Under the pieces are notes generated by a model. It was given only the letters and a program-made list of their open reading frames with translations. It was not told where the DNA came from and did no database searches. From assembly GCA_014871385.1 (NCBI GenBank), contig CM026426.1, forward strand, positions 94,036,238 through 94,100,237: 64,000 nucleotides of DNA. The letters run 5' to 3'. The DNA is from Ceratodon purpureus. Its lineage: Eukaryota; Streptophyta; Bryopsida; Pseudoditrichales; Ditrichaceae. Positions within the stretch are counted from its first letter, which is position 1. Each line of letters begins with the position of its first letter. Shown here in pieces: positions 992 to 38,504 of this stretch. A program made the position numbers and the translations under genes.

Positions 992-1067
992 CAAAATGGG
1001 GAACAGCTGTGTAATTCCACGCTTCTCCAACGCAGCAACAACAGCCTCCGCAATCCCGAGATTGCGC
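992..1067 (-). pseudogene. DEAD-box RNA helicase Q-motif exon fragment (RH3-like)
   Basis: A 76-nt exon follows CTGCAG and ends before a weak GTTGGT donor. It encodes a helicase Q-motif region, LGIAEAVVAALEKRG followed by ITQLFPI. The closest family I can name is the chloroplast DEAD-box helicase RH3 type, in which the next residue is an invariant Gln. Here that codon is TTG, so the key adenine-sensing residue is lost. The Walker A exon (GRD..ARAKTGTGKT) that should follow is absent from the downstream minus strand, so this is an isolated fragment. It sits in a cluster of same-strand exon pieces from unrelated genes, which suggests transposon-mediated capture. Family recognition is fairly secure; the capture mechanism is inferred. 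Confidence 0.6.
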
Positions 1068-1364
1068 CTGCAGGAATAAAATGTGGTATGTGTTATGAGA
1101 CTCGGCTCACTAATTGTTTTGAAAATCAATGATACCAACAGTAGTCGGAAACAGAAGAGTGGGACTGATTAGGAACAATTAGCAGCTTACCAAGATAGAG
1201 CTGTACTGAAAACCCACTCGCCAGAAGATTGTAAGCGAATGAGATTGCACCAACCTACATTAGCAGGGAACCTTCGTGAGAAAATGCAAACAATGCCTTA
1301 TTAGCAAACTAACCTTATTATCAGACTAACCTTATTCAGCAGATTGTCTAACCTTCACTGCCAT

Positions 1365-2338: not shown

Positions 2339-2941
2339 CTGTATCACAAGTATTGAATTATTCCCATTGCAAGAGTTAAAATATTTGACAATTGTCAAGA
2401 ATCACACTGACAAGTAAACGTTTCAGCTTGAGGATATGGTGTTTACCCTATGTAGGATGCCAATTTCCAGCCTGGCTTAAGTAGAATACGCAATCTGGTT
2501 TGTAATTACTTTTACAGTCCCGTCTCCAATCAGGTGCATCCGTCTCCCAGATAAACAGAACCTGGCTCATAGGTCGGGAACAAATATCAACTGATGCTCG
2601 TTGGAAAGATTTTTTTATTTTTAAATACAACACAACCTTTGAAAGAATCAATCAAAATACCTAGCTACCTCAAACACTGCCACATGCTGCTCAGTATATA
2701 CTACCACCAATTAAACAATATTGCACAAGGGAAACCGCCTTCTCTGAAATATACTTTACAGGGGAGCTAGAGTGATTATAAGATAACACAGATCATAGCT
2801 CACTCTCACAGCAGATACACATCCAAAACTAGATCACATTCAGGTGTAGATATGACAGTCTGGGATAGCTTACAATGAGGATAATTCTTGCAGCTATAGA
2901 GGACAAAATTAGTTGAGTAAAATTCCTCGTTGAATCACATT

Positions 2942-3580
2942 TCAGAACTTGGAAACCACAGATTCATGGTCACGAATCTTCCAATGTATGAGAAAAGAGT
3001 AATTTGATGAGTACGATTTAAATCGCTTAAGCTGAGAATACCTTCCATAATTTAATGGTTTTGTCGTTTGTGGAAAGCAGGAACAGGGCAGCATTGGCAG
3101 TTTGACACCACCTTATTTTATTGATCTTCTCCTCTATTTCCAAACTCTTCAAGTAATCGAACTGCAGATACAAGTTTATTCAAAATAGCACGGAATCAGT
3201 AACATTAAAATAATGAGCAGATATATTAGAACTCCACTAACAAACGACGAATGGTACTATAAGAACAATCTCCAGATCCAAAAAAGTCGTCACTTGGAGA
3301 AGTTGAAGCGACATAACTTCTATTTCACATTAGATTACAATTAAAAGTACTGAAACCCACGCATCACAAACAACTGTGTCAGGAGACTCGGCACAATTTT
3401 GGTGAACGCAACGCCTTTAAAAGCTGGTTACATCCATAGAAATATTACCTCTGGTTCGTGACTTTGGAACTCAGTTGAGTATCGATATTCTGGATGCCTA
3501 GGTCCCACGGAATCAGCCCTTTCCAATTCCCTTCGTGTCCTTTGCTCCAAACGAAACGAAAATATCACCACAGACCATCA
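2942..3580 (-). pseudogene. PP2A regulatory subunit B (B55) exon fragments
   Basis: Two well-formed exons match the WD40-repeat B55 subunit of protein phosphatase 2A. The first runs from about 3580 to 3449 (donor GTAATA) and includes RHPEYRYSTEFQSHEPE. The second, 3161-3042 (after CTGCAG, donor GTATTC), is exactly 40 codons and covers [18 protein letters not shown] through [11 protein letters not shown], a highly conserved B55 stretch. A third piece after an AAG at 2977 continues IRDHESVVSKF and hits a stop at 2942. Upstream of the first exon the frame closes with TGA close to where the GGRVV motif should be, and no exon for the remaining WD repeats is found. The gene is therefore a fragment of roughly one fifth of a normal B55 (about 450-500 residues). 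Recognition is strong; the coding potential is judged lost. Confidence 0.75.
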
Positions 3581-8200: not shown

Positions 8201-8665
8201 ATAATTAGTCTTACTTTGTAGTTGTGGCACCCACTACATTAAGAGCTACCATTTTTTGTTCATTTTAAATTTGATTCTTAATTCTATCTTGTTATGCAAG
8301 TTTCATCATGTAATTTACATGAAAGCTACTTTCTGGCGGCAAGAACTTTACTTGAATAAATGACAACCAAGATTAAGTTTATTACTGCTCATATGCCTCC
8401 TAGGCATAGTGAGCTTTCGGGACAGAAGTGGAATTGTTACATCAATAAAAATGTAAAATTATTGAATAGTACAGTCTTTTCCTGCATGACTAATGTATAT
8501 TAATAAAATAAAAAATGCATTGATGTTGAACCAGGCAATGAAATATTTTAAAGCATTTTAATAAATCAGAAAATTGCATTTCTAAATAATTTATACATGA
8601 ATAAAATATCTTTCTCTAAAAATTGAATTCCTAGGGATTATCAAAACTAAGCCTCTAAGTCTAAA
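5221..8665. other. AT-rich intergenic stretch without recognisable genes
   Basis: Long A/T-rich sequence with only short chance ORFs. I see no tRNA, no terminal repeats and no coding remnant. The right end abuts the 3' end of the Tnp2 transposase gene. Confidence 0.6.
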
Positions 8666-11600
8666 CTATATAACTAAGTGATTTCGCAATGTGTTGTCCT
8701 CTGTCTCATAAGCTAGAGATCTTCCATTTCCTTGTGATGGATTCTTGATACACAAAAATTTGTGTTTAATGCATCTGATCGGTCGAATACAGGAATCATC
8801 AAATGGGACGAAGATATTTTTTTTTATCACATTCATATATGTGATTGGGTCCACCACATCTGTCTCATGAAAGCAGACATGTTGGTAATAATCTGCCGAG
8901 AAGTAGGTTTCGATGTGCATGTTATGGTCATGGCTGAAGATTTCTCTTATCCTCGCTTTGTACGGAGTACCACCAGCTTCGTCGTTTTCTACCACCACAT
9001 CATCGCCTACTGCGTAGTGATATTTTTTCACTAGACAAGCCTTGTGTATAAGTATGTAAGGGGAGTGTGTAGTATCTATTCCGTCCAAACGATGCCTTAA
9101 GTAAGACCAAATCATATCCGAAGCTTGTTCGTATTTGTTGTTCATGGGACTAATGACTATTCCCTTTGATGTTGCAATAGCAGAACAAAATGAATCAGAT
9201 GCTTGATCCAATAGCTTCAGCAAATGTCTTGCTTTTTTTGTAGATGATGTTTTCAGACAGCAGTTCATATGCCACCGTGGACACTGCAGAATGTGAGTAT
9301 GTCTGATCCCTTGTGGATACATAAGAGCACCATGAACTTCGTCGAGAGCTCGTTCCCTTGTATCCAGCCCGTCAGCTTCCTTTGCAATACAGAGTTGAAC
9401 TTTATGAAATAACTTCCTTGCGGTATACTTAGCAAATGTCGCTTCCACATTTTTTTGATTAGTCTTGATGTTGTTGTATCTCTTAACCTCCCTCTCGTAC
9501 GGAAAACACCAGTACACGTCGGAATGGCCGAATCGTACTATGTCTTCTAAAATGTGGGCACCGCCGGCCACGTGCTCTAATGGTCTTCCATTTGGCCCGT
9601 CCAGTTCTTCTGAAAGAACACGCCACTTCTGTAACAGCTGACGAACAACATCCAAGTCTTCTAGACTCCAACCTTTGTTCCGAGTCCAATTGAAGAAGAA
9701 ATGAGCTATATCAACAAGCAAACGCCCAATCATGCTACGCCTCTTCGAAAATTGATATTTGTTCAACGCCAATTTGTGCAGAATAAAAGGTAACATCCAC
9801 ATCACAAAAAGCTGACATTCTTCCGCAGTGTAGGTTTTGTGATCATTAATGGGATCATCGGGCCACTGACCCTGCTTTAATTCGGAAGTACGGGCTTTGG
9901 TAATGGAGGCGCAAGTGGCATCTACAAGTTCTAATAAGATTTTTGATTTCGGATGTTCACGGATATCTTCGAAGAACTTTATGATGTAATTCTTAAACAT
10001 GTTAAGATTGAATACGTGCATAACATCGTAGACTAAGTCCCGTGAAATGTCAAATCTGTATAAGTGATATAGTCGCCATAAGTGTGAATCCCCAGAGACT
10101 CCAGATTCCATGCTGTATTCCTCTCTGGCCGCCTTGTCATTCTGCAGCCTTTTCAAATAATTTACACTTTGACTTAATTCCTTAGCAGTGCGCCTCATGG
10201 GGGGGTGGATAATTTGATTTTCATTATCGCCATAAACGTATCGACCATCAACCAACTCTGAATGCATCTTACATCTTCGACAAGCGGATTTTCCAGAGGA
10301 TTTCAGATTTGAAATCTTGCACTGAGCTGGATGATCCCCGGTCAGCAACATCGATACTGCCCTTACATTCGGGGTCTCGGAACGAGGCAAGAGGTTGCTG
10401 ATCCTGCACATAGGATAGTTGTATCTACACTCCATTCCGTCCACGAACAAGGTCTTCAACTCTTCTATGAAAGGCCTTGTGAAAGCCATAATGTTTTTCC
10501 TCATATGTTCAGCAACGTAGGGTTGATTCCCACTTAGGGGGATAAACAACACTGGCAGTAGCGATAAACTTGATAACCTGCCTGCGTTGAGTACATTGGC
10601 CTCCATAACCCAACAACCGCGTTGTTTTTTCCCCGACACTTCAAACCCGTCCCAATGCCCTGCAAGAGCTAAATTTCGGGGGTCGCCCATAACCACCTTT
10701 TTGGGTGCCACTATCTGCCTCCGACATTGTTTACACATGAATTTGTAACTCTGTGATAGTGTGTCCCAATGTTGTGGAGTGCGTAGGGATTTGCATTTCA
10801 TCGGAAATGCACAGTATGCCCTACGACACTTTGTGTTTGGACAGATAACGGGGAGTTCCCACTCAACCTCCGGGTTCCAAAAGTCTTGGATTTCTCTAAT
10901 TTTTTCACCATGCCAGACTTCTATGATAGTTGGTGGAGCCTCATGCACATTCAACCACTCCAAATGCGCCCTCCACATGGTCAACAGTTCATGACACAAA
11001 GTCCTGGAAGCCATTGAACTTGATAGTTGGTCCCCAATGCTGAGATAGTCGAATGATATCATTTCGAATCTCGAGTGGTTGCAATGTCGACATGTTTTCA
11101 TACACACGGGACACGTGCGCATATCATTCGGTGGATTGCAGGTACATGCTACATATTGGCTGCCATCATAACCATCTTCCTCGGCTGGTGGCAGAATGAA
11201 GGATTCGTGAGAGTATTTTCTCGTACCGAGGCACATCCTCCACCTCTTGGGTTGCACGAGTCCCCACGTCTTATATAATCGAAGCAATGTTTGGAAGGAT
11301 GAAGGGATGGAAGCAGGCCCCTCCAAGCTACCGTCCCAATCCTCAGGCATTGCCCTAATCAACGGGGCCAACCTATCTTCAAGAGAAACTCCTGGATGAT
11401 CATCTGCTGTGCCCGATAAGCCTTCAAAAATATGACGTAGAGTCCAATCTTGGCACTCCACTGGAACGCCTCTCTTGTCCCACTCCGCTTGGATTTTTAT
11501 GACCAAATTTTTCATCTTCTTGAGTAAATACTCCCTCCGATCCTCCATCTCATCAACGGGCACAAACTCGGGTTCGAGCTCGGGTTCAGGGGCCTCATCA

Positions 11601-11821
11601 TGTGGAGGTGTCTCAGCTTGTTCAAAAATTTGAGGTTGGTCATCCAATTGTGGCCCAGCTTGAGCATCCCTCTCTCTTTGTAATTCAATATCTCTTCTGT
11701 GATGCGTTTGCCGAGTCCGTTGATCCACCATTCTGAATCCACGCCATCCACTATTAGCAACACATCTGGAACACCTACACTTCACCTCCCTATTGCGACG
11801 TGGACGGATAGGTCGCGCCAT
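8666..11821 (-). CDS. Tnp2-type (CACTA/En-Spm superfamily) transposase, intact
   Basis: A single 1,051-codon ORF; I prefer the ATG at 11821 (MARPIRPRRN) over one 23 codons upstream because it begins the basic Cys-rich domain. Visible features: a basic N-terminus with CRCSRC (about residue 15), an acidic Pro/Glu linker (55-95), a Cys/His cluster C-x-C..CPVC..CRHC (226-247), another at CPNTKC..C and FMCKQC (327-366), a core with HWDGFEVS (about 389), LLTGDHPAQC (about 492), GDSHLWRLYHL (about 577) and the DVMHVFNLN block (599), typical of Tnp2 transposases. The last ~120 residues (from YAVGDDVVVEN) look like a BAH-type module with IETYF..DYY and a D..T.. tail. The product would cut and rejoin element ends in the nucleus. 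No stop interrupts it, unlike its transposon neighbours. CACTA-type ends were not found. Confidence 0.8.
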   Translation of the reverse strand: MARPIRPRRNREVKCRCSRCVANSGWRGFRMVDQRTRQTHHRRDIELQRERDAQAGPQLDDQPQIFEQAETPPHDEAPEPELEPEFVPVDEMEDRREYLLKKMKNLVIKIQAEWDKRGVPVECQDWTLRHIFEGLSGTADDHPGVSLEDRLAPLIRAMPEDWDGSLEGPASIPSSFQTLLRLYKTWGLVQPKRWRMCLGTRKYSHESFILPPAEEDGYDGSQYVACTCNPPNDMRTCPVCMKTCRHCNHSRFEMISFDYLSIGDQLSSSMASRTLCHELLTMWRAHLEWLNVHEAPPTIIEVWHGEKIREIQDFWNPEVEWELPVICPNTKCRRAYCAFPMKCKSLRTPQHWDTLSQSYKFMCKQCRRQIVAPKKVVMGDPRNLALAGHWDGFEVSGKKQRGCWVMEANVLNAGRLSSLSLLPVLFIPLSGNQPYVAEHMRKNIMAFTRPFIEELKTLFVDGMECRYNYPMCRISNLLPRSETPNVRAVSMLLTGDHPAQCKISNLKSSGKSACRRCKMHSELVDGRYVYGDNENQIIHPPMRRTAKELSQSVNYLKRLQNDKAAREEYSMESGVSGDSHLWRLYHLYRFDISRDLVYDVMHVFNLNMFKNYIIKFFEDIREHPKSKILLELVDATCASITKARTSELKQGQWPDDPINDHKTYTAEECQLFVMWMLPFILHKLALNKYQFSKRRSMIGRLLVDIAHFFFNWTRNKGWSLEDLDVVRQLLQKWRVLSEELDGPNGRPLEHVAGGAHILEDIVRFGHSDVYWCFPYEREVKRYNNIKTNQKNVEATFAKYTARKLFHKVQLCIAKEADGLDTRERALDEVHGALMYPQGIRHTHILQCPRWHMNCCLKTSSTKKARHLLKLLDQASDSFCSAIATSKGIVISPMNNKYEQASDMIWSYLRHRLDGIDTTHSPYILIHKACLVKKYHYAVGDDVVVENDEAGGTPYKARIREIFSHDHNMHIETYFSADYYQHVCFHETDVVDPITYMNVIKKNIFVPFDDSCIRPIRCIKHKFLCIKNPSQGNGRSLAYETEDNTLRNHLVI

Positions 11822-11980
11822 TAAGAAGAGAAATGATTTGCTAAAATGAAATATGTATGTAGGATGAAAATTTGGGAATCTCTCGCTCAATGATCAATGG
11901 GGCTCTCCACCTTAATAAAAAACTTCCACCAATATTTAATTAAAAAAAGAAAACCCACTCATACATATTTGGAAATATAT

Positions 11981-13389: not shown

Positions 13390-13393
13390 TTAA
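13390..13393. repeat. TTAA target-site duplication, left
   Basis: TTAA directly precedes the CCCC start of the left terminal inverted repeat. piggyBac transposases insert specifically at TTAA and duplicate it. Confidence 0.85.
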
Positions 13394-13406
13394 CCCCTTA
13401 ACGATG
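13394..13406 (+). repeat. piggyBac left terminal inverted repeat
   Basis: CCCCTTAACGATG, exact complement of the right end. The repeat itself contains an inner TTAA. Confidence 0.85.
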
Positions 13407-14386
13407 CAGCAACCGTTTTTGGCCTGCGGTGAAGGGAAATCGTCAGATTAGGATAGGGAGAACTGCATATTGGCATGTGTTCCGAACTAGTGAAATATGG
13501 GCACTTGAGTTGTTGACATTGTCGAATTTAAATTACAAATTTGCTATCAAATCCGAGTAATCTGCGACTGATTGTATCCCGGAATCCGTGTATTTCGGAG
13601 AGGTTTAGTACTCTGCGATGGTGGACGGGGTCGGGGACACGTAACGGGTGCGGAAATTTAGGGTGACAGTTGGTTACCTGGAGAGCAGGTCAAGGTCGTT
13701 GCAGGTACGCACTTGTGTGAAAGCCGAGACTCTCTAGGATTCCTGTCCTTCATATCTCAGCCTCCACTCTCACCACTCCGGCTTCGCGGCACCTGTAATT
13801 TTTTTATGGTTTCAGGGTTTGCGCCCGTTCCATCATGAATTGGAGAGATGGCGTGCGGAGGCGGCGGAATGGCGTGCGGAGACGGCGGGGCAATTGTGAC
13901 AAGCAAGAACTTCTGGTACTGAATTTGTGGAGGTTTGGGGGGGAAATGGAGCTGGGGTTTCAATACAAGAGGCGGTGGAGGCGGGCAATAGTTCTCCAAT
14001 GCAGTAAGAGGTATATTGTCAATTGTAGCATTCCATTACAGAACCTTGGTATGAAGGGTGACGAATGCAGATGGGAGGTAGCGGCGCAGGGAATTGTGAA
14101 CAGCGCATATCAGTGGAGGGTGAATTGTTCATTTGGTTCAAGGAGCAGGGCATCTTGGAGAGTGGAGCGTCTCGGGCGCTGCAGCTGCTAAACGTAGACA
14201 CACTTCTCCGCGAGCCCCGACCGAGCAGGTGGAACCGGAGAGGCGATTTTGGAGTCCAGGAACGGTGCAGGTACCTGTGGTACAGGCACGCGGCGAGGAT
14301 TTTAGGGTGGGGAGAGCGAAAGCAGTTTCCACAGCGTGTGACGCACATTCTGCGAACTCACATCTTCCCGAGTGCGAGTGGGAGAA

Positions 14387-17300
14387 ATGAAGCGTCTGGC
14401 GAGAATGAAGAAGGGAGGGTCGCAGCCAACGCAGCTTCCTCAGGAGAGACCTACGCTGCCGGCAATTCCCAATCCAGAGGTGAGTAACTGAACGGTTTTG
14501 CAATGCATATGTGAGAGCTCATGTGGGCATGGATTTAGGGTATTCAACTCATAATTCACAGTTTCCAAGGAGATGATTTAAGCATTCAATATATGTGAAG
14601 CACAATTCGTATTGAGCCCCGACAGTGGAACCTGTTTGTATTGATTCTTCGGGGAAGGCAACCAGGAACACCTCATGGGCTTAGGGTTGCAACATTCTTA
14701 GTTGAACATGTAATCCTAAGTCGGATTTCCTGATTGCACATGTGGGCATACGTTTGCAGGACTCCTTCGATCTCACACAGCGACTCGTCCAGACAGCGCC
14801 GGAGAGCAGGGATCCGGCCCCGAAGGAGCGAAAACCAAAGAAGCCCAGAGCAAAGAAAGTGGTGAGTTTGTGTATGCTGTACCCCTGTTTTCACCTTTGT
14901 TATTACCCAAAAGAATATGGGACATAGGGATCGTCTTGGTCAATTCAGCAGCGGATTGAGAGTGGTTGCTATCTTTGACGCAGGTGGAACTTGCTGCGTC
15001 AGGCGTACAACCCGATGTTGGGAAGGAGAACTTGGAGCCTGTTCCAACACCAAGGGCACCGAGGAGACCACGAGCGAGGAAGGTGAGGTTCAATACTCTG
15101 TTGCAAATGTGTTTTGATGGTTCAGGGTGCTGGACGGAGGTCGAGGGTTCGATTTGACAGTGGCTGATAAAACGCAGGTGCAATCGGATGCTTCACAAGG
15201 CAATGTTGGGAAGGAAAACAACAACCCTGCTCCAAAACGAAGAGCACCGAGGAAACCACCAGCAAAGAAGGTGACTTTCAAAACTCGTTCACTGTGTTTT
15301 GATGCTTGTCATGGTACTTGTGGTGGACAGTAGGAGATGAGGTCATTTCATGTGAAGGGGATGTTATTGATGTTAGGATAATTGAGGTTTGGGTACGGCT
15401 GAGACATGAGAGGGTCTTCGCAGGTTCTCCTACGGTCGACAGCCACCAACCAAGACGAAATACAGGAGGTCGACCTTGCTGCCGTCACTCAGGTGCCGAG
15501 TACGGGAGTGGGAGGGGGGTTGAAGCGACCACGAAAGCCCAGGGTGGTGAAGACAGCTACGTTGGGAGGGGAATGTACTCCGAAGGCCGTCCGGAAGTCG
15601 AGAGCGAAGAAGGCGACGCTCGAACAGTATTTCATTACCGACCTCTGGGAACAGACTCCAATGCCCGAAAGCGAGTCGCCAAACGCGTTCGGCCCGCCTC
15701 TACCAGAGTCGACACTGGCGTCAAGACGTAAGCACCCCAAACACCGTAGGTTCGAGCAATCACTCTGCATTTATAGGGTTAGGAATTGAGTATCACTGCT
15801 GTGATTGTCAAAATGGTATTGATTTGTGTAACACAACATCCTGTTCCTGCTTTGTTTTGAGAATTCATCCCGTTGGTCGTTGTAATCCATGTTGAAAGGA
15901 GTGCAAGGGATCTGTTTTACATTTTTAGTGCTACATTGGCTCTAATTTGGTGTGCCTCTCTCTTACGATATCTGTGCTATTCATCCTGCCAATGTGTGCA
16001 GGTCGGCAGGAGAAAGAGAAGAAGGAGAAGGCGGCCGAAGTGAAGAAGGAGAAGGCGACCAAACAGGAGAAAGGGAAGGTTGATCGCGACAAGAGACGGA
16101 AACCACATGCGTGGCTACCCCCAACCATTGTGCCGAACATCACCGATGGAGTGCGTACGAGGTCAGTAGCAGCACAGAACGAGGAGTACGATAGGCAACG
16201 GGAGAACGACGACCTCATCTGCGAGGTCCTAGCTGATTTTGGACGTGAAGAAGATCTGGAGAATCAAGTAGCACCAGAATCGCAGCATAGCCTCTACAGT
16301 TTTGAGACCTGCAATCTGAATCTGTGGGAGTCGGTATTTCGGGACAACACATGGAGGACAGCGGCTCCCATCCGGAAGCACTTTGGGTTTGGAGCCACAC
16401 ACCCTGGAGGCGCATATGAGAAGCCGGTTCTCGTGCTTGTGGAGGCCATGCCGGAGCGCTTCCACGGGGTTTACCAGGAATGGAGTTCGGAGAAGTCAGG
16501 CTGGGCAGTCCTGGTCCCGAACCGATTCCTCGCGGAGGGATCGTTCCACACCGGGGACACTCCTTCCTGGACACAGGGGGACGTGATCGGAGAGGGTGTG
16601 CACGCGCTGACCGGGGAGAAGATGGTGGTTTGCGACCTCGGGGGACATGACAGCGAGCGACATTTCAAGGAAGAGCAGGTTTGACTTGCTCTTGGTCCAG
16701 ACATCCGGGCGCGTGGGAGCGAAGGGGGCCACGGCTATGGCTGGTGGAAGAGGCAGCATTGCTTCTCTCCACAGCAGCCCGTGGTGTTCCCGGAGAATAT
16801 GGACTCGTACCCTGGGGGTTCAGGGGAAGAAGCGGGGGGAGGGATTGGTGGGGAAACAGCAGGAGGGAGTGTCAGCGGGGCGAGGACTGAAGAGCAGCCA
16901 GGCCGAACAGAGCACGTCGCTGAAAATGAGGACGAAGGAAGACAGGCCGCGCAAGCACTGGGGAGCTTCATTGCGGACTATGAAGCGCCCTCGGATACGG
17001 AAGGAATCGATGGCACCCAAGACTCCACCGCACGAATGACTTTTCCAAAGGTAAGCGTTGTCCTTCCAGAGTATATCTTGTGTCCAAGTTCCCCAGTTGC
17101 AGAAGGCAAAAAGAAGAAGAGGAAGAAATCGAGCATGCCTGAGCCCGATCCAGACTCTAGCGAAGACGAGTGGCTTCCGGAGTTTCTGGATACCATTGAG
17201 AGTGAACACTCTGACTTCGACTGCCACGAAGAAGAGCCAGGTGTGGATCCTGCACCGGGGCTAGAGACATGGTGCATGCGGCCAGAGAGCTTCAGTCGAG

Positions 17301-18868
17301 GACATCTCAAGCCACACCAACTCCAACATTACTATAGGAGGGAGTCATGGAACTCAGACAGCGTGGATTTTGTGAGGACCAGAGAGAATTTCACGGGACC
17401 CCGACCAGGATTGAAGTGCCCCCGACCCCTTGGTGTTCCCCTGCCGCATACAGTCTTTGAACTCTACTGGAGTGATGCCGTCATTGACAGGATCGTAGAA
17501 GAAACAAATCGCTATGCAGCAACGTTGCTGCCATGTCAGGAGAATGAGGTGCCCTAGACAAAAGGAGGTCGACGTTGGAGGGATGTAGATAGGGCGGATA
17601 TTCGGGGCTGGTTAGGAATTTGCATCCTTATGGGATGCAAGCGCCTTCCCAGTGTGAGGCAGTACTGGATGCGGAGTCAGCCCTTCCTCTACTGTGAGCT
17701 GATCTCTTCTATTATGAGCTTAGGGAGGTGGGAGGATATTCTGAGGTGCCTTCACTTGGTTGACAATGCTACTGTGGTGAGGGATGTGAAAAATCCTAAG
17801 TTTGACAGAATTGCGAAGACTAGGTGGCTGGTGGAGATGTTCAATACGGTTTCCAAGGAGATATACAACTTGGACAGGGAGATTACAGTAGATGAGTGTG
17901 TGATTCCCTACAAAGGAAGATATTGCTTTATTAGTCAGTTCATGCCTGACAAGCCAGTCAGATTTGGTATAAAATGCTGGTTGTTGGCAAGTTCGAAGTC
18001 CAGGTTTGTGTGGCAGATGGAGGTTTACTTCGGGGAGGGGACCGTATTGGGGCCTCATGGTCTTGGATACCATGTCGTTGAGAGGCTGGTGAAGGGCTTA
18101 GAGAACAGGGGACACGTCTTGGTGATTGACAACTTCTTCGCGAGTGTTAACCTGTTCCACGAACTCATGTGCCAAGGGATTTGGGCGACGGGGACAGTCC
18201 GCAGACATAGCAAGAACCTTCCAAGAGGCCTGTGGCGAAAAGAAGACCCTGATGTGCGCGGTTCAATGATCTTTAGGACCCACGTCCACAGGCAGATGGG
18301 CGTGGTGTCGTGGCAGGATAAGCAACTTGTGACTTTGCTTAGTACCGCAGCCCCACCGTGGGCACCCAATACAAAGGTTCTACGCCGGATCCCGGGAATG
18401 ACAGGCCAACTCATAGTTCCGTCCTCACCGATGCTCACTCAATATGTAGAATACATGCGCGGCGTCGACGTCGCTGACCAGTTGCGAGCGAGTTACTCTT
18501 CACAGCTTAGGTGTCACAAATGGTGGCTCAAAATTTTCCATTTGATAGTCGATCAGACCATGGTGAATGCATATGTCACCTCGAAGAAAGACGTGGAGGA
18601 CTTGGGGTTGCCGAGCAGTACCCACGTTGCCTTCAAGATAACGGTGGGGAAGTACCTCGCTGAGGGAGCAATTGCGGCACGACGTCGGCTCCATGACCCC
18701 CCTATGCGTCCACCAAGACGGCCTGCAGGGGTGCACACCCTCTTTCGCTCAGAATTCAGACAGAAGTGCGTAATTTGCGGACGGGTGCAGAGGTGGTTAT
18801 GTCGACAGTGTGGGAACAAGTGGGTCTGCCACGGAGAGTGCTACCAGGAACTACATGCGAGGTTATGA
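14387..18868 (+). CDS. piggyBac transposase, seven exons, repeated basic N-terminal exons, one in-frame TAG
   Basis: Exons, all phase-compatible: 14387-14479, 14760-14861, 14984-15082, 15178-15270, 15424-15727, 16002-16678, 16775-18868. Exon 1 starts MKRLARMKKGG. Exons 2-5 each carry a Pro/Lys/Arg block (for example RAPRRPRARK), like AT-hooks. Exon 6 adds a Lys/Glu-rich stretch and an unrecognised ~200-residue domain. Exon 7 has an acidic linker, then the transposase core from about LPHTVFELYW. The catalytic aspartates typical of piggyBac (DDD plus a fourth) are visible at 17891 (VDECV), 18128 (IDNFF), 18467 and 18476 (GVDVADQ). The C-terminal Cys-rich zinc domain starts at 18767 (CVIC..CRQC..C..C). 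A TAG at 17555-17557, inside the N-terminal part of the core, is the only interruption. The product would act on the TTAA-flanked ends. Whether the TAG is read through or is a recent lesion is open. Confidence 0.8.
14760..15270 (+). repeat. Triplicated exon module in the transposase N-terminus
   Basis: Exons 2, 3 and 4 are 102, 99 and 93 nt, all phase 0-0. They share the layout: variable start, PDVGKEN or NVGKEN-like middle (exons 3 and 4), then PAPK/PTPR and a basic RAPRxPxAKK-type end at the donor site. The introns between them also resemble each other in length (about 95-125 bp). This points to tandem exon duplication. The fifth exon has a diverged basic block of the same type. Confidence 0.7.
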
Positions 18869-19516
18869 CAGATGCCTCTGAATCCATCTGAACATGGGAG
18901 TTGGGCTTTTCCTCGCAGGTTGGAAATACGAAAAGTCGCTGGACCGTGTCCAAGTGGGACTTCAACTCGGCAAGGAACGCGGCTACGAAGACAGGGGGTC
19001 CGCTGCCTGCATCGAGGAAGCGCCGTCAGTCCCTGTGAACCAATGTCAAGGTTCTCGTTGTAGAGCCAAAACAGGGGATTCTCTTCAAAAAATTTCATGC
19101 AACTTAGCCATGGGGAATTTTGGACATGGTAAACAGGCATCTACGCTGACAATGGGAGGGCTAGGGAGAACTAAAGGACCCCTGCTGTGCTTGTAAATGC
19201 CTAACGTTGTGTCCGTCTGGTCTTTTTTATTACGCTGACTTGGTATAGGTGATGTGCAATTTTGAAACGCCGATCCAGTATTCGACGTGACTTCGTGGCC
19301 CTGCCTCTGAATGCATATGTGGCAGGGTTAATGTACTTGGCTTGCCACGGCTATGGCCAGTGAAGTCATCCACTGCCATTCATGGACCCTGTTTTCTTGC
19401 GTAATTTGTCATGGTGTACCGTCTAATGAGAATTGGTCGGAATTCTGACTTTGTATGCCCATGGTGGACTGGGACGTGGAGTTGCGGTTTGGGATTCTGT
19501 GCAGATTGGACCATAA

Positions 19517-19539
19517 CCCCTTAACAACCGATGTTGTGG
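19517..19539 (+). repeat. Internal copy of the piggyBac end motif
   Basis: CCCCTTAAC, then AACC, then GATGTTGTGG. Without the four extra bases and one gap this matches the right end of the element (complement CCCCTTAACGATGTTGGTGG) over about 19 positions, longer than the left end matches it. It is preceded by ATAA rather than TTAA and is in left-end orientation, so 19517-24622 could be an inner unit of 5.1 kb. Confidence 0.5.
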
Positions 19540-20868
19540 AACTGCTTCCGTGTTCACTTGAGGATTCTGTTGGAGATTGAGTCGGAATTGGAGGCGTTTC
19601 TTGCTTCGGTGTTCATTTACGGGATGCCATGCGCAAGGTGTTTGGAGGTGCGTGTTCCATGGGAGGTGTGTTCGATCGCGCCGGTTTTTTTTTGACAAGG
19701 CTTGTTTGAGGGTTAGAGGATGCTTGTAGTGGTGTACTGTTGGGAGGTGTGTCAGTTTCTCTTTCTGAGGTGTAGCTTTCGTTTGCTGCAGATTTCGTTG
19801 CTGGTTTTGATTATGTTGTGTTTTGAGAATTGGTTCATTACGGGATTTTTTCCGGTCTTTGACTACCTTTGTGGCAGCCCCTTCTGCGCAACCTGTTTGG
19901 AGATGCTCTGCACGAACTGTACAAGGAAGGCATTCTGAGGCGTGGAGATCAATTCATCTCGTCCACGGCTATAGCTACGAACTTTTTCGGAATTGAACAC
20001 AAGCTCTGGATGTCGGAGCAGTACACTCGTCTCTTATATTGTGCTTAATCTTTCGTCTTCAGCAGTTTCGTTTTCGTAATAGTAGTGTCGTCAGGATGGT
20101 CAATTTCGCTTCCGGTAGTGTGTCTAACTTTAACATTTTCTGATTTGTATGCTGGATGCTTGTTCGGGTGGATAGATGTACATGAAGCTCTAGACAGATC
20201 GATCACTTGGTTGACAATGCCACTATCTGGTTTTGTACTTGGTAAATAGACCCCAGCCGATATCATACCCTGGAATGTGTTCCGGAATGTCACATGATGA
20301 TATAGATTACTTCCATTCCCTTGTTCGTAGATCAGCAAAATCTATCATGTCATGAGTATAAAGGAGTATGCACTTTAATATATCTAAAGTTTCGCATGGT
20401 CGTGGAATGCCTGTAGGAGTTCATTTAACCGATCTTGTTTGATAATTGCAGAGTAATTCCGGGGTTCATTTTGCAGCATGGGGTTCCACTTGGTGTATGA
20501 AGGTCCCAACTTGAGCAAGCCATTGCCATCTCAGCTTTGTCTCACAGGCAGATTGCGTGCTCTGCAGGAACTTTGCGGCTCCTAGTTTGTATATGGCGAT
20601 GTTCGTGGACTGAATTTGACCTTACCTCTTCCCCTTGAGTGCATATATGAAGGTACGATACATTGCCCGTATGATCATGTGTGTAGTATCTATCGTGAGA
20701 TACTCTATCCGGATTGTCCCGTGCTGTTCTGCTCTTGGGGTTGCTTTCCTCCACATCTGATGGTTCCTGCTAGGCACATCAGAAACTGTCCTATGTTGAG
20801 GTGGAGAAAACAGAACCCGTTCATAAGCAGGCACCTGGCTGATCGTGATCATTTGCGTCGCTGTTCAG
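19540..20868. other. Inside piggyBac, no firm coding exon
   Basis: Short ORFs such as 19720-19938 (hydrophobic, Cys-rich) lack splice or homology support. A possible upstream exon of the next gene is at 20479-20586 (MGFHLVYEGPNLSKPL), but its donor cannot be matched in phase. Confidence 0.35.
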
Positions 20869-21567
20869 GGACCCTTCTTGAGCAGAGGCGGCATGCGTAC
20901 CACGATCAGCTGCGACGAGGTCAACTCCAGCATGGGAGTGGTGCCCCACAACGTCGCCCGTGACAGCGACATCTCCAGCAGGTATGTGGTCTTGTCCTTC
21001 CTCGCAGTGCCCCATGCTGCGTCTTCCCAGTTCATGGTCCCCCTTACACGCTCCCTCGAGTACTTATAGACTCATCATCCCCATTGCTCTTCCAGGTTAT
21101 CGATGCCTGAGCACTTATTAACAAATTCGATGAAGCGCCGATTTGAAGAGATGTCCTCGCATCGTCCAGGAACAGTGGAGGAGGTCCGCGACTGGCTTCG
21201 CAGGGTGGAGCTCTTTGGACAAGTGAACTGGGACGTGGAGTTGCCTTCGTATGGGGCTATAACGCATCTCCTTGATAACGACATTGTGTGGGACTGGTCT
21301 CCCACCTGTACAAGACAGTATGATGCGGTGGCCCAGCTGACCGGGGTTGTGCACGGCAGAGGAGAGTGTCGCGGGCCACGTCCACCTTCCCCCCCCCCTC
21401 ACACCGACGCAGCAGTACATTCTCTGGGGACAGTAGGCCGCCCTCCGTCGGTGCTGCCCACCTCCCCGGACACCGACGACGAAGAAGACTCTGCACCCCA
21501 CGCTTGCGACTCTAACTGCAGCGACGGGTGTTGCGAACTGGCAGGCGGCATGTGGGTGCCGCTCTAG
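20869..21567 (+). CDS. Unknown piggyBac cargo gene, two 3' exons
   Basis: Exon 20869-20981 (after TTCAG, donor GTATGT) and exon 21096-21567 (after TTCCAG) join in phase into one frame of about 194 codons, ending TAG at 21565. The first exon includes RTTISCDEVNSSMGVV. The second has a helical part (MKRRFEEMSSHRPGTVEEV, then VRDWLRRVELFGQVNW), a Pro-rich stretch around the eight-C tract, and an acidic then Cys-rich tail (DTDDEEDS..CDSNCSDGCCEL). I do not recognise the family. The 5' end is missing: the phase-0 acceptor at 20869 needs an upstream exon. It sits between the transposase and the B3 gene on the same strand, so it travels with them if the element is mobile as a whole. Confidence 0.5.
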
Positions 21568-22593
21568 GCAGGATCAACCGCATAGAGTCCCTGCCGAGAG
21601 GACATTTGCAAGGCATAGGTTGTATCACTCTATCACCATTGTGTACCCTTCACAGGATTAATAAATCGCACAATTTTTTGAGTACATAGTTTTCGTTTAG
21701 GATTCATGTGTCTGGATGGCAGTCATATAACTTTGCGGTGAGTTTGGTATATGCGTTGCTTCTAGGATTGTGAAGCTTGATTTGTTGATTTCGCTGGATT
21801 CTGTTATTGTTGCATCCTGTGGTGTTGTTGGTGGTCTTATGGTAATTTGCTGCCAAATTGGAGAGGTTTTTGGATTTTCCAAAGTTTTTAGTGAGGAAAC
21901 ACGTCTATTTTGCTCCAAGGCTGTACTGAGGGAAGGCACTGAATCCCGGGATCTGCGTCTGTTTTGGCGTGGATTGCTGTCTTCTCTTTAGTGTTAGGAT
22001 GTGAGTGGAATCTGACTGCTTGTTGCTCGGTTTCCATGGATGTATTCGCGTAGGGATTCCAGGCACTAATCCTTGTCCTAGCGCCACGGATGTAGGATGT
22101 GTCTGAATTCTGATTTGTAGACCCATTTAGTGTTCCCACTCTGTTCCAAAGCCCTCGAGTACAGGTCTTTTCGGACTTCCTATCTCATGAGTAATGAGAT
22201 TTTGGGGATCGGGGAGCCTACATAATGACGACTTCGACGGGGGCGATTTCAATGCGCTGCCTCATCCACGGCATTCAAAGGAGGCCCCCATGGTGATTGG
22301 ACAGACCAGAGATCTGTGCCGATTTTGCAATGACTGCCTTCATTGTTGACGTGACAGCCTGCCTATGAGCCCACAGTGTGCTCCGCTGCAGATTTGGTAC
22401 GCGCCTCCTTCATTACCCTCGATCTTGGACGCTACTATTTAGTGTGGTTTTGTACTTAGATTGCGCTGCACTATCTCAACGCACCACATTTCTTCCTTGT
22501 GCTCTTCGTCTCCGACTTGCCTCCTCCTCCCCTCTTAGCGTACTCTAACCCCTGACCTGCTTAACTGTGTTCCAGCTTCCGAAGTGCAGAGCA

Positions 22594-23649
22594 ATGGCAG
22601 ACGAGCTCGAGAGGCAGCTGATCCGCGACTTGGAGGAAGTCCGGGCAATGTTCTTCACGTTGCGCATCTCTTCACTTGAGCATCGCCGCCGTCTGGTAAG
22701 CGGTCCCTCTTTACCGACTTCACACATTCATACTGTCACCCTTTGCTGATTGGTCTGCCATTGACAATGTGTCGAGGAAATTCCTCGCGCGTTCACGACC
22801 AAGTGGGGATGGCCGAGCAGCAACGACTGCGCCCTCGTCACCTCCATCACCACCGGAACGGAGTGGCGTCTTCGTCTCGAGCAGCGTTTCGTGGACGGAG
22901 GGATCTCTCGGACCGTCACCGTTGGCGATGGCTGGAGCAAGTTCCTGCGTGACCAGAACGTGGGGATTGGTGGCTTCTTCATATTTGAGGTCGTGGACCC
23001 TCGATGCCTCGTCGTCACCATCCCCCGACGTGGATCCCTAGAGCCCGTGGACATGCCCACTCCCCCGCAGCGAAACGTCGGATCCCCGCCGGAAGATCCC
23101 GTTAGTGGACATGGTCCTACCCGTCCCGAAGCTCCCGCATCCCACCCCCTCAAGTCTTGGCAGCGACGTTGCCAGCCATCGCCTGAGCCCGACACCGCCA
23201 CCGACCCTGAGCGTCTCCTGGGCCCGCAACCATATTTCTTGAAGACTCTACGCCAGACTCATACCAGTGAAGGGAATAACGCGAGGCTGGTCAGTGTCTT
23301 CTATCTCTGTCTCTGTTTTACTTGTTTGCAATGTACCGTTGCTTAGGAGAATCAGATAGGCAATGTGTTTCTGTTTGGTAATCGATCAGTTTCTGCGCTG
23401 TCGGTGTGTATGTAGGACGTACCAACGGCTTTCTGGCGGCGATTTGGACGAGAGACATTTGAGGGTGTCCTGTATACTTTGAAGGGGCCCTTCCATGGTT
23501 GCGTTGTGAATACCAAGGCCTCGTCCGTTCAATGCTACCTCACAGCAGGTTGGAGCGAATTTGTGGAGAAGAACGGCTTCATCCTGGGGGACAAGCTGCT
23601 CTTCACCAAAGTCGGACCCCTCGAGTTTCAGGTGACTCTGACCGCATGA
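22594..23649 (+). CDS. Double B3-domain DNA-binding protein, piggyBac cargo
   Basis: Three phase-0 exons: 22594-22695, 22777-23289 and 23416-23649, giving 282 residues. Exon 1 is a short amphipathic lead (MADELERQLIRDLEEVRAMF). Exon 2 opens with a B3 domain (EIPRAFTTKWGW, WRLRLEQRF, VGDGWSKFLRDQNVGIGGFF, FEVVDPRCLVVTI), followed by a Pro/Ser linker. Exon 3 is a second B3 domain (DVPTAFWRRF, CYLTAGWSEFVEKNGFILGD, FQVTL). Both retain the W-x-x-F..N-x-x-x-x-G-D/G-F core pattern of plant B3 proteins; two domains and little else is the layout of REM-type members. B3 proteins bind DNA in the nucleus as transcription factors. The frame is open, so the gene looks functional. Its position inside a TTAA-flanked piggyBac element suggests capture of a host gene. 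Confidence 0.8.
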
Positions 23650-24609
23650 GGCTTGAGCGTTGAAGAAGGTAGCTACGGCCTGATAATCGACAGAGTGGAT
23701 TAGTGAAACAATTCTGTACAACACATGGTGAGGTCAATACCATGTTCGTGAACTTCACAAACTGAGTTGCTCCAAGGTCGTCACTGCGGCTGGATGCCAT
23801 TTTCAATTTCCGCACGCGTCCTTTTTATTGTATATACCTTTGCGGTTTATAGAACCTCTTAGAATCTACTTTAGCATTCCTGAGAGGTAGAATTCACTTA
23901 TCACTTGGACTCTTGTTGTTCACGGAGGAAGCTGAACCTGGACTTACGATCCTTGCTGTACTGTGTGTCGGTCACAACCGAATCTTCACATCCACAAAAT
24001 ACATTTTAATTCCAATGCAATTTCATAATATTCTGTTGTAAATGTACACATTGTAGTTCGTCGGTGCTGGCCTTGTAATCCCCTTCAACTTCGGAGCAAT
24101 CCCATGAAGGCGGTTGCTTGTTCAATGTCCTGTGACAATCCCAGGAGCGGTTGCCTCTTCAGTGTCCCGTGACACCACGCACCCAGACGCCACCCTCCCA
24201 TGTATCTCAAACCACGTTCGTCCACGATACCACCGGTCATAGTCGCTGACGTAAGCACCATCGGTGATACCGTCTTCGCCGGTTGCAGCCCGACCCGGAA
24301 ACCGGCATGGCAGGTGAAAACCGTCCTCGATAGACCGGGAGTTCCGCAGGGACGACTCGTCCCGCCCTGCGTACGCGCCCTACTTTTCTACGTATTACCT
24401 CGTCGGAACCCCCTCGCACAAGATAATTTCCTGGAACCAAACCGCATGTTGGGTCGCCGCACAAACTTCCACAGCTGTTACAGCACTCACCGAGTATACG
24501 TAGAAAAATTCCCGCCCTCGAAATCACAACTCTGCTCCGAGAAATCAGTCAATGTATAGAAATTACCGCAGAATACACTTGTTTACAGCACCACGTCTCC
24601 AGCCACCAA
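23650..24609. other. 3' subterminal part of piggyBac, no gene
   Basis: No coding exon is supported between the B3 stop codon and the right terminal repeat. A short imperfect duplication is visible near 24104-24175 (ATCCCATGAAGGCGGTTGC and a related TCCCAGGAGCGGTTGC, each followed by TTCA.TGTCC.GTGACA). Confidence 0.5.
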
Positions 24610-24622
24610 CATCGTTAAGGGG
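24610..24622 (-). repeat. piggyBac right terminal inverted repeat
   Basis: CATCGTTAAGGGG, the exact complement of the left end, followed by TTAA. Confidence 0.85.
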
Positions 24623-24626
24623 TTAA
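24623..24626. repeat. TTAA target-site duplication, right
   Basis: TTAA directly after the GGGG of the right terminal repeat, pairing with 13390-13393. Confidence 0.85.
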
Positions 24627-32226: not shown

Positions 32227-32231
32227 GCAAT
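32227..32231. repeat. Target-site duplication GCAAT, left
   Basis: GCAAT precedes the TG of the 5' LTR and is repeated at 41382-41386 after the 3' LTR. Confidence 0.9.
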
Positions 32232-32887
32232 TGTTACCTACAACAGCCACGGCGATCAAGGTAACCAGGGGCGGTGAAGACTAGCAGTTAGAGGAAGGAG
32301 CAGTCGAAGCAGGGAAGTCGTAGTTATAGCAGAAAGATAGGACAGAACTTAGTATAAACAGGGTAGCTAGGGGAAAGCTTACACTCTTCAGTTTTTGTGA
32401 CGATGTTGAGCCAGGATACTTGGTACGCTTGTGTTTTCTTTGTAAGCTGGGGCTCCATTGCTCCACGATGCCTTGGGTGTCTCGGATAATACACTCCCTC
32501 CCTCCTTTTACTTGCACTTACTCTGTTCCGACTCTTGCACCCTGAGCTGCTTGCTAACCCTAGTCTGACCTCGTTGGGCATGTTGTCTCTCTCTACCTTT
32601 TTCCTCGTCCTCCCACACAGTCGGTTCTCCTTCCTGAGACAAGGAACTGTTCCGTCCTTTCATCATCCGGGTACCTAGTCACCTTAGCTAGACCTCATTC
32701 GCCTTGGCTTCCAGGTCGGCCTTGACGAACCTCCAACGGTCTTGGTCCTAGCTCTGGGACCCCCCTTGTTCCTATGACCATACGGCTCCTCCTAAGACCC
32801 TGTGACCGTGTACCCTGGTTATAGGTGTTCACGGTCCCCTTGGTTATAACCGCACCTAGCAACTCCATCCGTCCAGCCCAGATAACA
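32232..32887 (+). repeat. 5' LTR (656 bp)
   Basis: Starts TGTTACCTACAACAGCC and ends CCCAGATAACA. It differs from the 3' LTR only at 32750 (A versus G at 41244) and 32802 (G versus A at 41296); both are CTG/CTA changes. Promoter and polyadenylation signals should lie here but I could not place a convincing TATA box. Confidence 0.95.
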
Positions 32888-32890
32888 TTT

Positions 32891-32908
32891 TGGCGACCAT
32901 GCTGGGGA
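32891..32908 (+). promoter_or_regulatory. Primer-binding site
   Basis: TGGCGACCATGCTGGGGA starts three bases after the 5' LTR, with the TGG that pairs with the CCA end of a tRNA. I cannot name the tRNA with certainty. Confidence 0.6.
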
Positions 32909-32960
32909 TGAATTGCTGAGGTATTCCAAGTTCTCCTTGAAAACTTAAAAACCGCTAACC

Positions 32961-33794
32961 ATGCCTCCCAGAGAACTCCCCCTAGATCGGATCAATGAAG
33001 CAGAGGACGCTGCTCAACAAGATGACCCTGAATCTACGAAAGATTTCCTTGTATGGATGAAACAACAGATGACCGAGTTAGTAGCCAAAAATGAGGCCAC
33101 TAATGCTAAGTTGGAAATACTTAGCGCACAGTATCACACCCTCCAAGAGAGTAGAACACACGAGGCCATTAATGCTACGCCCCAGGCCTCAGAAGCTCTC
33201 CCTGAAGCACTAAGATCCCCCACGATTCCAAGGGATAACCACACATCGGCTACTCTTCCTAGCCAAGGTGACACAAGTAAAACTATTAAGTATCCCAAGA
33301 TCTCTTACCCCGTGTTCGACGAATCAGGAGACCCTGATTGGCACGTCCGGAGATTTAAGGTTATCGCTAGAACTAATGGAGTCACCAATAATGAAGACCT
33401 TCAGAATATTTTTGGAACCACGCTTCAGGGTAACCACATCAATTGGTATATTGATTTTGAGACGGAACACTCGCACGCTACCTGGGATGACATGGAAGGG
33501 AGTTTTCTGCATAAATTCAGAAAATTGAAAACTAGTTCAGAAGTCCTCCGCGCTTTAGGCAGCATTACCCAGGATAAAAACGAACCAGTAGATAAATTCT
33601 ACGACAGATTTAAACAGCTAGCCGACAAATTAAGTCAGCGCCCTGAAGAAGATTACCTCTGTGAGTGGTTCAAGAAGGGTCTGTTGCCATGGATACAACA
33701 GGGCATCGTGATCCGCGGCGTTAAAACTTTGCAGGACATCTTGACTGCAGCAAATGATATTAGCAGAGAGCTAGGAGCCTTAAACCGAGTATAG
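32961..33794 (+). CDS. gag: Gag, nucleocapsid moved beyond an in-frame TAG
   Basis: ATG at 32961 in a good context follows the primer-binding site. The 277 codons hold an N-terminal coiled-coil-like stretch (about residues 25-60) and a retrotransposon-gag core (about 110-260; YPVFDESGDPDWHVRRFK, WYIDFE, FLHKFRKL, DKFYDRFKQLADKL). The TAG at 33792 is followed in the same frame by two Cys-rich knuckles (the second, [14 protein letters not shown], near 34005, fits CX2CX4HX4C), so the true Gag reaches past the stop. The protein packages the element RNA into cytoplasmic particles. Confidence 0.85.
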   Translation: MPPRELPLDRINEAEDAAQQDDPESTKDFLVWMKQQMTELVAKNEATNAKLEILSAQYHTLQESRTHEAINATPQASEALPEALRSPTIPRDNHTSATLPSQGDTSKTIKYPKISYPVFDESGDPDWHVRRFKVIARTNGVTNNEDLQNIFGTTLQGNHINWYIDFETEHSHATWDDMEGSFLHKFRKLKTSSEVLRALGSITQDKNEPVDKFYDRFKQLADKLSQRPEEDYLCEWFKKGLLPWIQQGIVIRGVKTLQDILTAANDISRELGALNRV

Positions 33795-36700
33795 GCACCC
33801 CTGTTACCTTTACCCAACCTACGACCAGAAACTAGGCCCCCCTTGGCTCCTTGTTCCAGTTGTGGAAAAATACATGGAGGACGCTGCTGGTACGCTAACA
33901 CCTCACCACGACCTGAGGATACCCGACGCCCTCGGCCTACCGCGGCAACCATATACCCTGAAGAAATAAACGTAGATGCATTTCAACCTAGCCGAGGAGA
34001 TGCGTGCTGGGAATGCGGTTCGTTAAATCATAAACAAGGCCAGTGCCCTCAGTTACACCAACGATGGGCTCAGTATCGTTCCAACCCCGGCCAGCAAGGA
34101 ACCATGGAAAATCCAAAGGGGCCTGGAACTCCTAGAAGGGGCGGAGTCACACTAACTGAAGTACACGGAGTGGAAACCGGTGTGTCCACTATTAGTACTG
34201 CAGTAGTAACGACCCGATCCAAGGCTCCCACGGAAAATCACGTGGTTGAACACCGCAAACCTTTTTCAGAAAATCACTGGGAAAGACTCCATAGGATACG
34301 ACAGGACTTACAAGAAGGCCTAGAAAATTCACATACATCTTCACCTTTGCAGCAGATCTTAGACGATACCAATGTTACCATCACGTTATCCAAATTGATC
34401 AAGTTAAGCCCTGAACTCCAAAAATACCTACAGCAGACAGCCATACCTGAAGGAACAACCGACCCAGAAGTCATTGAAGTTAATGCTACTACTCTGGACC
34501 CAGATGCCTCGGTAATCCATTTACAACTAGGGACTCATGAAGTAGCCAATGTCTTGGTAGATGGAGGCTCTGGAGTGAACGTTATGAGCAATCACCTGAG
34601 AAAACAATTGGGACTACCCTCACCACGGTTGGCCCATTTCATCCTACGAATGGCGAATGATGCCCCAGTAACACCCTTGGGTATCTTGTCCACGGTAGCC
34701 ATTACCACACATGGTGTGTCGACACCAGCCACTTTTGTCATCATTGAAATGCCAGATAGTAGTAATTTCCCGGTAATCTTGAGACGGCCCTGGTTGAGAG
34801 ACATGAATGCCATCCACGACTGGTCTAGAAATCAGATACGGATACAATGCCAAGGGAAAACAGTCGTAATCCCCGTAGATAGCTGCATCACCAAGGCTCG
34901 AGCCAACCAGATTCGACACAATGCGGGAACTAACTGGGCCGGTGGACTATCACCCAAACAAGAAGCCATGGTGTTTCAGGTCAACCCTGATTTAATCCCA
35001 GTAGCGGAAATACATTTGGCCAGCATGGTGGCTGAACAAGACCAAATGGATATACCACCTCATTTTTCCCAGGAACTCCAAGAAAACATTACAGTTAACG
35101 CCGTCCCTGCCAACCAAACCTTGCAGAACGAAATAATTACAGGATGGTTCCATGGAGCCAAGGACAAGGTCGAGTTAGTAAACCTGGGAACAGATGAAAA
35201 ACCCAAATACATCAAGATCAACGCTGACGCTCCCAAATCCATCAAACAAGCCGCGATTGCCCTGTTCCATGAATATCAGGATATTTTCGCTTGGGGCCAT
35301 GAAGATCTCAAGGGAATACCTGCAACCTTGGCAGAACATACCATAGATTTGGTACCAAATGCAACCCCGATACAGCAACGGAGATACAGGATGAACCCCA
35401 ATTATGCGGAAAGAGTCAAGGCCGAGTTAGACAAACTTTTGAAGGCCAAGTTTATTTCGCCAGTGGACTCCGCTCCCTGTCTGTCTCCCATGGTTATTAT
35501 TCCCAAGAAAAATGGGACATTAAGAATTTGCGTAGATTTTCGCAAATTAAATGCAGCCACAAAAAAGGACCATTACCCCTTGCCTTACATGGAAGAAATT
35601 ATAGATGAAGTGGCAGGCCATGAAATGTATTCATTTTTAGATTGTTTTTCAGGATATTACCAAGTTGCCATGGCTGAGCAGGATAAAAATAAAACGGCAT
35701 TTTCTACTGAATGGGGGCCTTATCAGTTTGAACGAATGCCTTTTGGAGCCAAAAATGCCCCTATGACATTCCAACGTGTCATGGAATTAATATTCCGGCC
35801 ATACTTGAAAAGATTCTTTTGGATTTACTTAGACGATGGAACGGTTTATGGCCACATTAAAGATCACATTTCTCAACTCCGGCAAATATTTGAAGCTTGC
35901 CGTGCCAATGGAGTAAGTCTCAATGCTGAGAAATGCATGTTCCTTTTCTTTGCTGGAGTAATCCTGGGGTACATTGTTTGTAAGTACGGAAAACTCCCTA
36001 ACCCCGAAAAAATCAAGGACATCTTGGAAATCACCCCACCCAAGGATCAAAAGGGCATTCAACGCCTGTTAGGACTCTCACAATTCAATCGCATATACAT
36101 AGAAAAGTTAGCACATATTACCGCTCCAATCACGGCTTTAAATCATGCCAAATACAAGTATCCCCAAGACTGGACCCAAGAAGCCTAGGCCGCCCTTGAA
36201 AAAATTAAGCTAGCCTATTCCCGTGCTCCCATTCTCATTGCGCCAGACTCGTCCAAACCATTCCATGTTCATACAGACGCATCCAATATTGCCGTGGGAG
36301 TCATGCTAGCCCAAAATGTAAATGGGAAATATGACCAACCAGTGGCTTACGCCAGTCGCCTATTAAACCAAGCAGAAAAGAATTATTCTACAACTGAACG
36401 AGAAGCCTTGGTTATGATTTATGCTGTTAAAAAATTTCGACACTATTTACTTGGAAACAAGTTCCGCTTCATGGTCGACCATCACAGCTTGTCCTACTTG
36501 GTAAATCAGCCCTTAGTAACAGGCCGCGTTGCTCGCTGGATAATGATCCTCCTGGAGTATGATTTTGAGGTAGTTTATGTTCCCGGTAAACGTCACATAG
36601 TAGCTGACTATCTATCCAGGGACTCCAAGGCTACCGAGGAGGGAATTGATGATTCGTTCAACGAATCTTACATTCAGACTGCGAGTCTGGAAGTTGATAT

Positions 36701-38300: not shown

Positions 38301-38504
38301 GGACAATCATCAGTTCACCAAGGGTCGCTCCCACTCACTGCTCCTCTCTCACCATGCCCTTGTCTTCTTCCTCCCTGGGTTTCCATGCGCACTGGCTCCT
38401 TTGTAGTCACTCTCCACAGCGACCCTCGGCATTCCATTTCGCCACAGCTTCCTCATCCCCTCCTTCTTCCCTGGACCTTCCCCACAGTACGCCCAGTGTT
38501 AGTC

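Follow-up and report, generated by a model that had tools for sequence, protein, structure and literature searches.

Why would a plant DNA transposon carry, beside its transposase, a gene for a protein with two DNA-binding B3 domains? The question is raised by a piggyBac-type element at positions 13390-24626 (a span of 11,237 bp) of the window, the whole 64,000-nt stretch analysed here, C6:94036238-94100237 in the genome of the moss Ceratodon purpureus (taxid 3225; assembly total 362.5 Mb). We propose that this element belongs to a multi-gene piggyBac lineage, in which the double-B3 protein is probably the element's own DNA-binding regulator or cofactor. Members would encode, on one strand and in a fixed order, the transposase, often a small unknown protein, and the double-B3 protein. 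In the window the element reads as follows.

13390..13393, no strand: left TTAA target site (direct reading)
13394..13406, plus strand: left 13-bp terminal inverted repeat CCCCTTAACGATG (exact match)
13810..15740, plus strand: probable upstream transposase exons with basic Pro/Arg-rich repeats, bounds approximate (suggested by frames, splice-like signals and a duplicated 92-nt block)
15929..17557, plus strand: N-terminal part of the transposase frame, interrupted by two stops (frame reading; homologues read through)
17558..18868, plus strand: catalytic core and Cys-rich tail of the transposase (PF13843; piggyBat and piggyBac structures)
21130..21567, plus strand: small gene, frame from MKRRFEEM (frame; relatives in its own genome)
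22594..22695, plus strand: double-B3 exon 1 (our splice placement; layout recurs in relatives)
22777..23289, plus strand: double-B3 exon 2, first B3 domain and linker (our splice placement; PF02362)
23416..23649, plus strand: double-B3 exon 3, second B3 domain, stop included (our splice placement; PF02362)
24610..24622, minus strand: right 13-bp terminal inverted repeat, reverse complement of CCCCTTAACGATG (exact match)
24623..24626, no strand: right TTAA target site (direct reading)

Do these features form one mobile unit? An earlier note on this DNA had described perfect 13-bp inverted ends, each with a TTAA, and they are found exactly, at 13390-13406 and 24610-24626. With at most one mismatch the 13-mer CCCCTTAACGATG occurs twice in the window, against a mean of 0.04 in 100 shuffles, none of which held two, and this comparison rules out a chance origin of the ends. 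TTAA plus the 13 bp (a 17-mer, exact) occurs seven times genome-wide, and all seven occurrences are assigned to the window's element, to other full-length copies or to a deletion copy on contig C3. Five further full-length elements share such ends and TTAA, one of them with a mutated left TTAA. Copy B (C6:51.07 Mb; 97.5% to the window's element over an 11,243-position alignment; left TTAA mutated to GTAA), copy C (C9:3.80 Mb) and copy D (C6:49.07 Mb) have the same architecture. Their lengths are 11,243, 11,315 and 11,210 bp, each encloses either the B3 gene or a diverged relative, and so they pass well beyond the 19.5 kb of the window at which a shorter element might have ended. The other two lie on C5 (5639773-5650390, in locus L009; 10,618 bp by arithmetic) and at C3:7.41 Mb (about 7410689-7419458; 8.8 kb by arithmetic). 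The left end of the latter was picked from two candidates because the GGCCTACGGTG block of other left ends comes next. TTAA flanks both ends in the window's element, in C, D and the C5 and C3:7.41-Mb copies, and in the C3 deletion copy. The inverted ends start with CCC; they are perfect over 13 bp in the window's element and imperfect in C, D and the C5 and C3:7.41-Mb copies. The 25 bases printed on either flank differ among copies.

The deletion copy (L008, C3:915968-920395, 4.4 kb) consists of element positions 1-3211 (98%) and 10014-11237 (97%), with TTAA outside. The outer ends are thus mobilised together, since the five additional full-length elements and this 4.4-kb copy keep them, and the reading of 13390-24626 as one piggyBac-type element holds. 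The earlier note had also called it an oversized, gene-carrying piggyBac. That it carries genes stands; that it is oversized does not, as the six full-length elements measured, the window's included, span 8.8-11.3 kb and its size is that of its family. At the L008 junction of positions 3211 and 10014 the alignment shows about 6 bp common to both sides, as abortive gap repair would leave them.

How regularly does the B3 gene accompany the transposase? Searched with the window's core, the genome gave at least 96 scored transposase matches (61-100% identical; contigs C1-C13, 36 of them on C6). They were scored from 1,105 first-look candidates, and family counts are lower bounds. The corresponding search with the B3 protein, in which 138 of 744 candidates were scored, gave 195 matches, the best 150 of which were listed and used and form 128 loci. 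Among the matches listed, a same-strand B3 locus follows the core start at a distance of 1-8 kb in 40 of the 96 transposase copies. No B3 locus falls within that distance upstream, and in two copies a downstream locus lies on the opposite strand. Five hundred circular shifts gave a mean of 0.128 and a maximum of 2, against the 40 observed. Where downstream DNA was read, B3 exons were present in 30 of 30 copies. Of these, 24 had been known beforehand or picked for a listed B3, namely the window's element, B, D and 21 more. The other six had none listed (C, the C5 copy and L074-L077), and B3 exons were found in all six; L074-L077, in which the exons were found by profiles, were picked by us among unlisted copies with open frames above 900 amino acids. 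Within the window, B3 profiles had no match outside the element.

The spliced product, of 282 amino acids, has an open frame and matches PF02362 in two stretches (E 1.8e-18); its nearest solved structures, TEM1 (E 0.06) and NGA1 (E 0.11), match weakly. Its three-exon layout recurs among copies, with exon 2 intact in 22 of 26 and exon 3 in 23 of 26 by our pattern, and the NCBI models P0080, P0081 and P0089 of C. purpureus have the same exon joins. A homologue search with the single spliced protein passed 0 of 702 candidates; an 11-row alignment of exon 2 passed 20 of 5338. Four C. purpureus proteins at NCBI that match the element's B3 profile are named hypothetical or TF-B3, a point of interest for annotation.

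The small MKRRFEEM gene matches no Pfam family at E up to 1. In 25 of the 96 transposase copies a relative follows the transposase on its own strand, and none lies upstream or on the opposite strand, a count that rests on the best 46 of 67 matches. Wherever both genes are listed (17 of 17 copies) the order is transposase, small gene, B3. The small gene's ratio of nonsynonymous to synonymous substitution rates (dN/dS) is 0.20 between the window's element and D, 0.51 against B and 0.57 against C. The earlier note had placed the B3 and the small gene between the transposase and the right end, as passengers of one element. Their position is upheld; a pickup by one copy is not, as both recur in a large family. 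Whether all copies hold both genes has a mixed answer: B3 is in 30 of 30 copies read and in 40 of 96 by listed matches, and the small gene in 25 of 96.

Is the B3 gene kept by selection? For exons 2 and 3 together, the six least diverged pairs gave dN/dS values of 0.16, 0.82, 0.20, 0.35, 0.12 and 0.24. Mean pairwise identity is 44% for B3 against 71% for the transposase. The two genes also have different histories. Trees were built from 22 of 26 copies; L062, L066, L067 and B, in which either exon 2 or exon 3 could not be found in intact form, were left out. In the transposase tree copy C groups with the window's element (support 100), in the B3 tree with L051/L052/L070 (98). Likewise, L061/L064 group with L072 by transposase (100) and with L068/L071 by B3 (99). 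Approximately unbiased tests on the B3 data reject the transposase groupings (p 8e-5 and 2e-8), and on the transposase data they reject the B3 groupings (p 2e-6 and 1e-43). Opposite element positions 8301-10444, which include the B3 gene, copy C has no DNA alignment to the window's element, while both sides align. Because the trees conflict and this stretch of C alone fails to align, we conclude that elements have swapped B3 cassettes, on two or more occasions in the sample. A gene that is mostly kept intact and swapped among family members looks like a working part of the transposon, not a chance passenger.

The transposase itself is of the expected kind. The core at 17558-18868 matches PF13843 (E 9.1e-67) and the solved structures of piggyBat (E 1.6e-25) and piggyBac (E 6.3e-20). 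The aspartate motifs, whose residues we take to be the catalytic ones, are kept in the alignment to piggyBat, and a Cys-rich tail is seen by eye; these readings agree with the earlier description of a piggyBac transposase with catalytic aspartates and such a tail. Of 3,533 candidates in a protein search with the core, 77 proved to be homologues, with identities of 79-91% for the best. Upstream, at 14.8-15.7 kb, lie basic proline-/arginine-rich repeat pieces, one 92-nt block being duplicated at 78%, and these exon-like pieces probably extend the N-terminus. Two in-frame stops, TGA at 16682-16684 and TAG at 17555-17557, had been missed earlier. Homologues code on at both places (by sight), and introns are ruled out as their cause for that reason. 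With two stops where homologues continue, the window's transposase gene is, as its sequence reads, broken as it stands, and a full transposase could not be made from the present frame. Elsewhere in the family, one scored copy in three has a long frame of 900-1100 amino acids (a hand count gave 33 of 96 that are open over at least 900 amino acids and free of stops inside the match). Two pairs of 22-nt near-perfect duplicates (95%) also lie within the element, at 17752-17773/20203-20224 and 19464-19485/21223-21244, one of them connecting transposase coding DNA with downstream DNA. An Rfam scan at gathering scores gave no match.

How might such an element work? Cut-and-paste transposition at TTAA is known from the piggyBac family, and by the same chemistry the moss transposase would excise the element at TTAA and reinsert it at another TTAA. 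The double-B3 protein could then act as an accessory factor that binds element DNA, switching on or shielding its genes or assembling its ends. An element-encoded DNA-binding factor is what one would expect from a second gene that keeps its position, is mostly constrained, varies more than the transposase and is exchanged. Exchange of the cassette could in turn let an element alter its DNA-binding specificity. More tentatively, the lineage may hold an exchangeable DNA-binding cassette engaged in an arms race, in which B3 defeats silencing or steers transposition and trading cassettes alters specificity; this we consider possible, at well under even chances. If these ideas are true, many annotated moss double-B3 genes would be transposon genes or their descendants.

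Several observations weigh against a double-B3 protein that works for the element. Among the matches listed, 56 of the 96 transposase copies have no same-strand B3 within 1-8 kb (downstream DNA was read in six of these), and 88 of the 128 B3 loci have no scored transposase adjoining. These unpaired loci may be neighbours of unscored transposase copies, solo remains or host genes, and some B3 copies may have a host role. The four copies left out of the trees yielded no intact exon 2 or no intact exon 3. The dN/dS of 0.82 belongs to the pair L061/L064, where exon 3 of L061 is interrupted, and most remaining B3 pairs are near saturation at silent sites and little informative. Finally, k-mers of 6-9 nt in the non-coding DNA of the window's element, C and D stay within the range of 40 shuffles, except for poly-C in C.

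Among the specific forms that our proposal can take, a sequence-specific anti-silencing factor or transcriptional activator resembling VANC of the VANDAL transposons is a realistic one, though we would not give it even odds. In both cases a plant DNA transposon carries a second protein that differs between related elements. VANDAL elements have a transposase of another superfamily and another DNA-binding domain. The conserved second gene adjoining the transposase fits such a role, as do its low identity relative to the transposase (44% against 71%), the constraint in most of the closest pairs and the exchange of cassettes. VANC is described as a sequence-specific anti-silencing factor (PMC5735166, PMC10398659) with short target motifs, often in tandem repeats (PMC5735166). 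There is also a precedent for change, as the VANC target shifts between related elements (PMC5735166). What speaks against the analogy is that a repeated short motif of this sort did not emerge beyond shuffles from the non-coding DNA of the window's element, C and D, bar the poly-C run in C.

Alternatively, the double-B3 protein could be a transposition cofactor that sits on subterminal DNA and helps the transposase to pair the ends. We find this form rather doubtful. Some plant transposons employ two proteins, and at one or both ends of several copies a GTATTCTG-like block is seen by sight some 45-60 bp inward. Yet in copy C a B3 from a different clade goes together with ends like those of the window's element (left 87%, right 77%), so ends and B3 need not match, which disfavours a cofactor acting there. 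Known piggyBac transposases, to our knowledge, work alone, and known B3-type hexamers show no clear concentration at the ends, where counts are small.

Could the B3 and the small gene instead be captured host genes that hitchhike, in the style of Pack-MULEs? B3 is a domain of plants, the B3 frame is broken in some copies, and capture of gene fragments is common in plant transposons (PMC6431247). But Pack-type cargo consists of variable, unconstrained host fragments, and here many copies have the same gene, and have it on one side and one strand. It keeps its three-exon structure though the transposases are as little as 64% alike, its dN/dS is 0.12-0.35 in all but one of the six closest pairs (the exception has 0.82), it is exchanged between elements, and among the matches listed it accompanies 40 of 96 transposases where 0.13 would be expected. 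We therefore hold hitchhiking to be improbable. The least credible reading, to which we give hardly any weight, is that of two transposons, nested or side by side, one with the transposase to about 19.5 kb and a separate one with B3 to 24.6 kb: an end-like motif, CCCCTTAACAACCGATG, does lie at 19517-19533 and recurs in copy B, but it has left-end orientation, is preceded by ATAA and was not found in the full-length copies C and D, none of the copies read ends at 19.5 kb, the ends of the C3 deletion copy are the outer ones, and the seven exact genomic ends all belong to assigned elements, which rules out an element end there.

How does a multi-gene lineage with its own double-B3 factor compare with known transposons? 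It resembles piggyBac and piggyBat in its TTAA target, short inverted ends starting with CCC, PF13843 transposase, aspartate motifs and Cys-rich tail (by sight). It differs in its length of 8.8-11.3 kb, its long N-terminal part, the recurring double-B3 and small unknown genes, and its high copy number in a plant; most studied piggyBac elements encode a transposase only. En/Spm (TNPA/TNPD) and MuDR (MURA/MURB) are also plant transposons with an accessory protein, but belong to other superfamilies and have other accessory proteins. PiggyBac elements as such are known from plants (PMC10813416). In medaka, Teratorn is a piggyBac fused with a herpesvirus, 180 kb long and largely viral (PMC5601938). 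The moss element is likewise enlarged by genes beyond the transposase; unlike Teratorn it measures 11 kb and carries a plant-type B3 gene, no viral family appeared among its ten frames scanned against Pfam, and a scan of viral_contigs with the transposase gave no match. Literature on piggyBac in mosses and bryophytes (including Ceratodon and Physcomitri) and on links between B3 and transposons yielded no such elements, within a partial coverage that left Repbase outside, so that a prior record is possible; in the available parts of a moss genome paper "piggybacking" was the sole related word (PMC10619864). PiggyBac is a transposon in wide use as a tool; a plant lineage of at least 96 copies, in which an accessory DNA-binding gene recurs, would add a new natural design to it and offer a plant parallel, open to testing, to counter-defence of the VANC type.

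As for the genomic setting, C6 measures 110,524,308 bp, and proteins tagged M758_UG sit on another contig, of 112,179,120 bp. Its size suggests that C6 is a sex chromosome, and the protein tags suggest that it is rather the V. A structure predicted for homologue P0006 (12 sequences) had a mean predicted local distance difference test score (pLDDT) of 32 and was not used. Other repeats surround the element in the window. At 8666-11893, on the minus strand, an open frame of 1075 amino acids resembles a CACTA/TNP2-type transposase (by sight). A Ty3/gypsy-like long terminal repeat retrotransposon (frames by sight) occupies 32229-41022; it is bounded by two identical direct repeats, each 300 nt or longer (32229-32528 and 40723-41022), and looks young. 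Further on, 47858-48413 and 49609-50164 form an inverted repeat of 556 nt, 99% complementary, with a spacing of 1195 nt.

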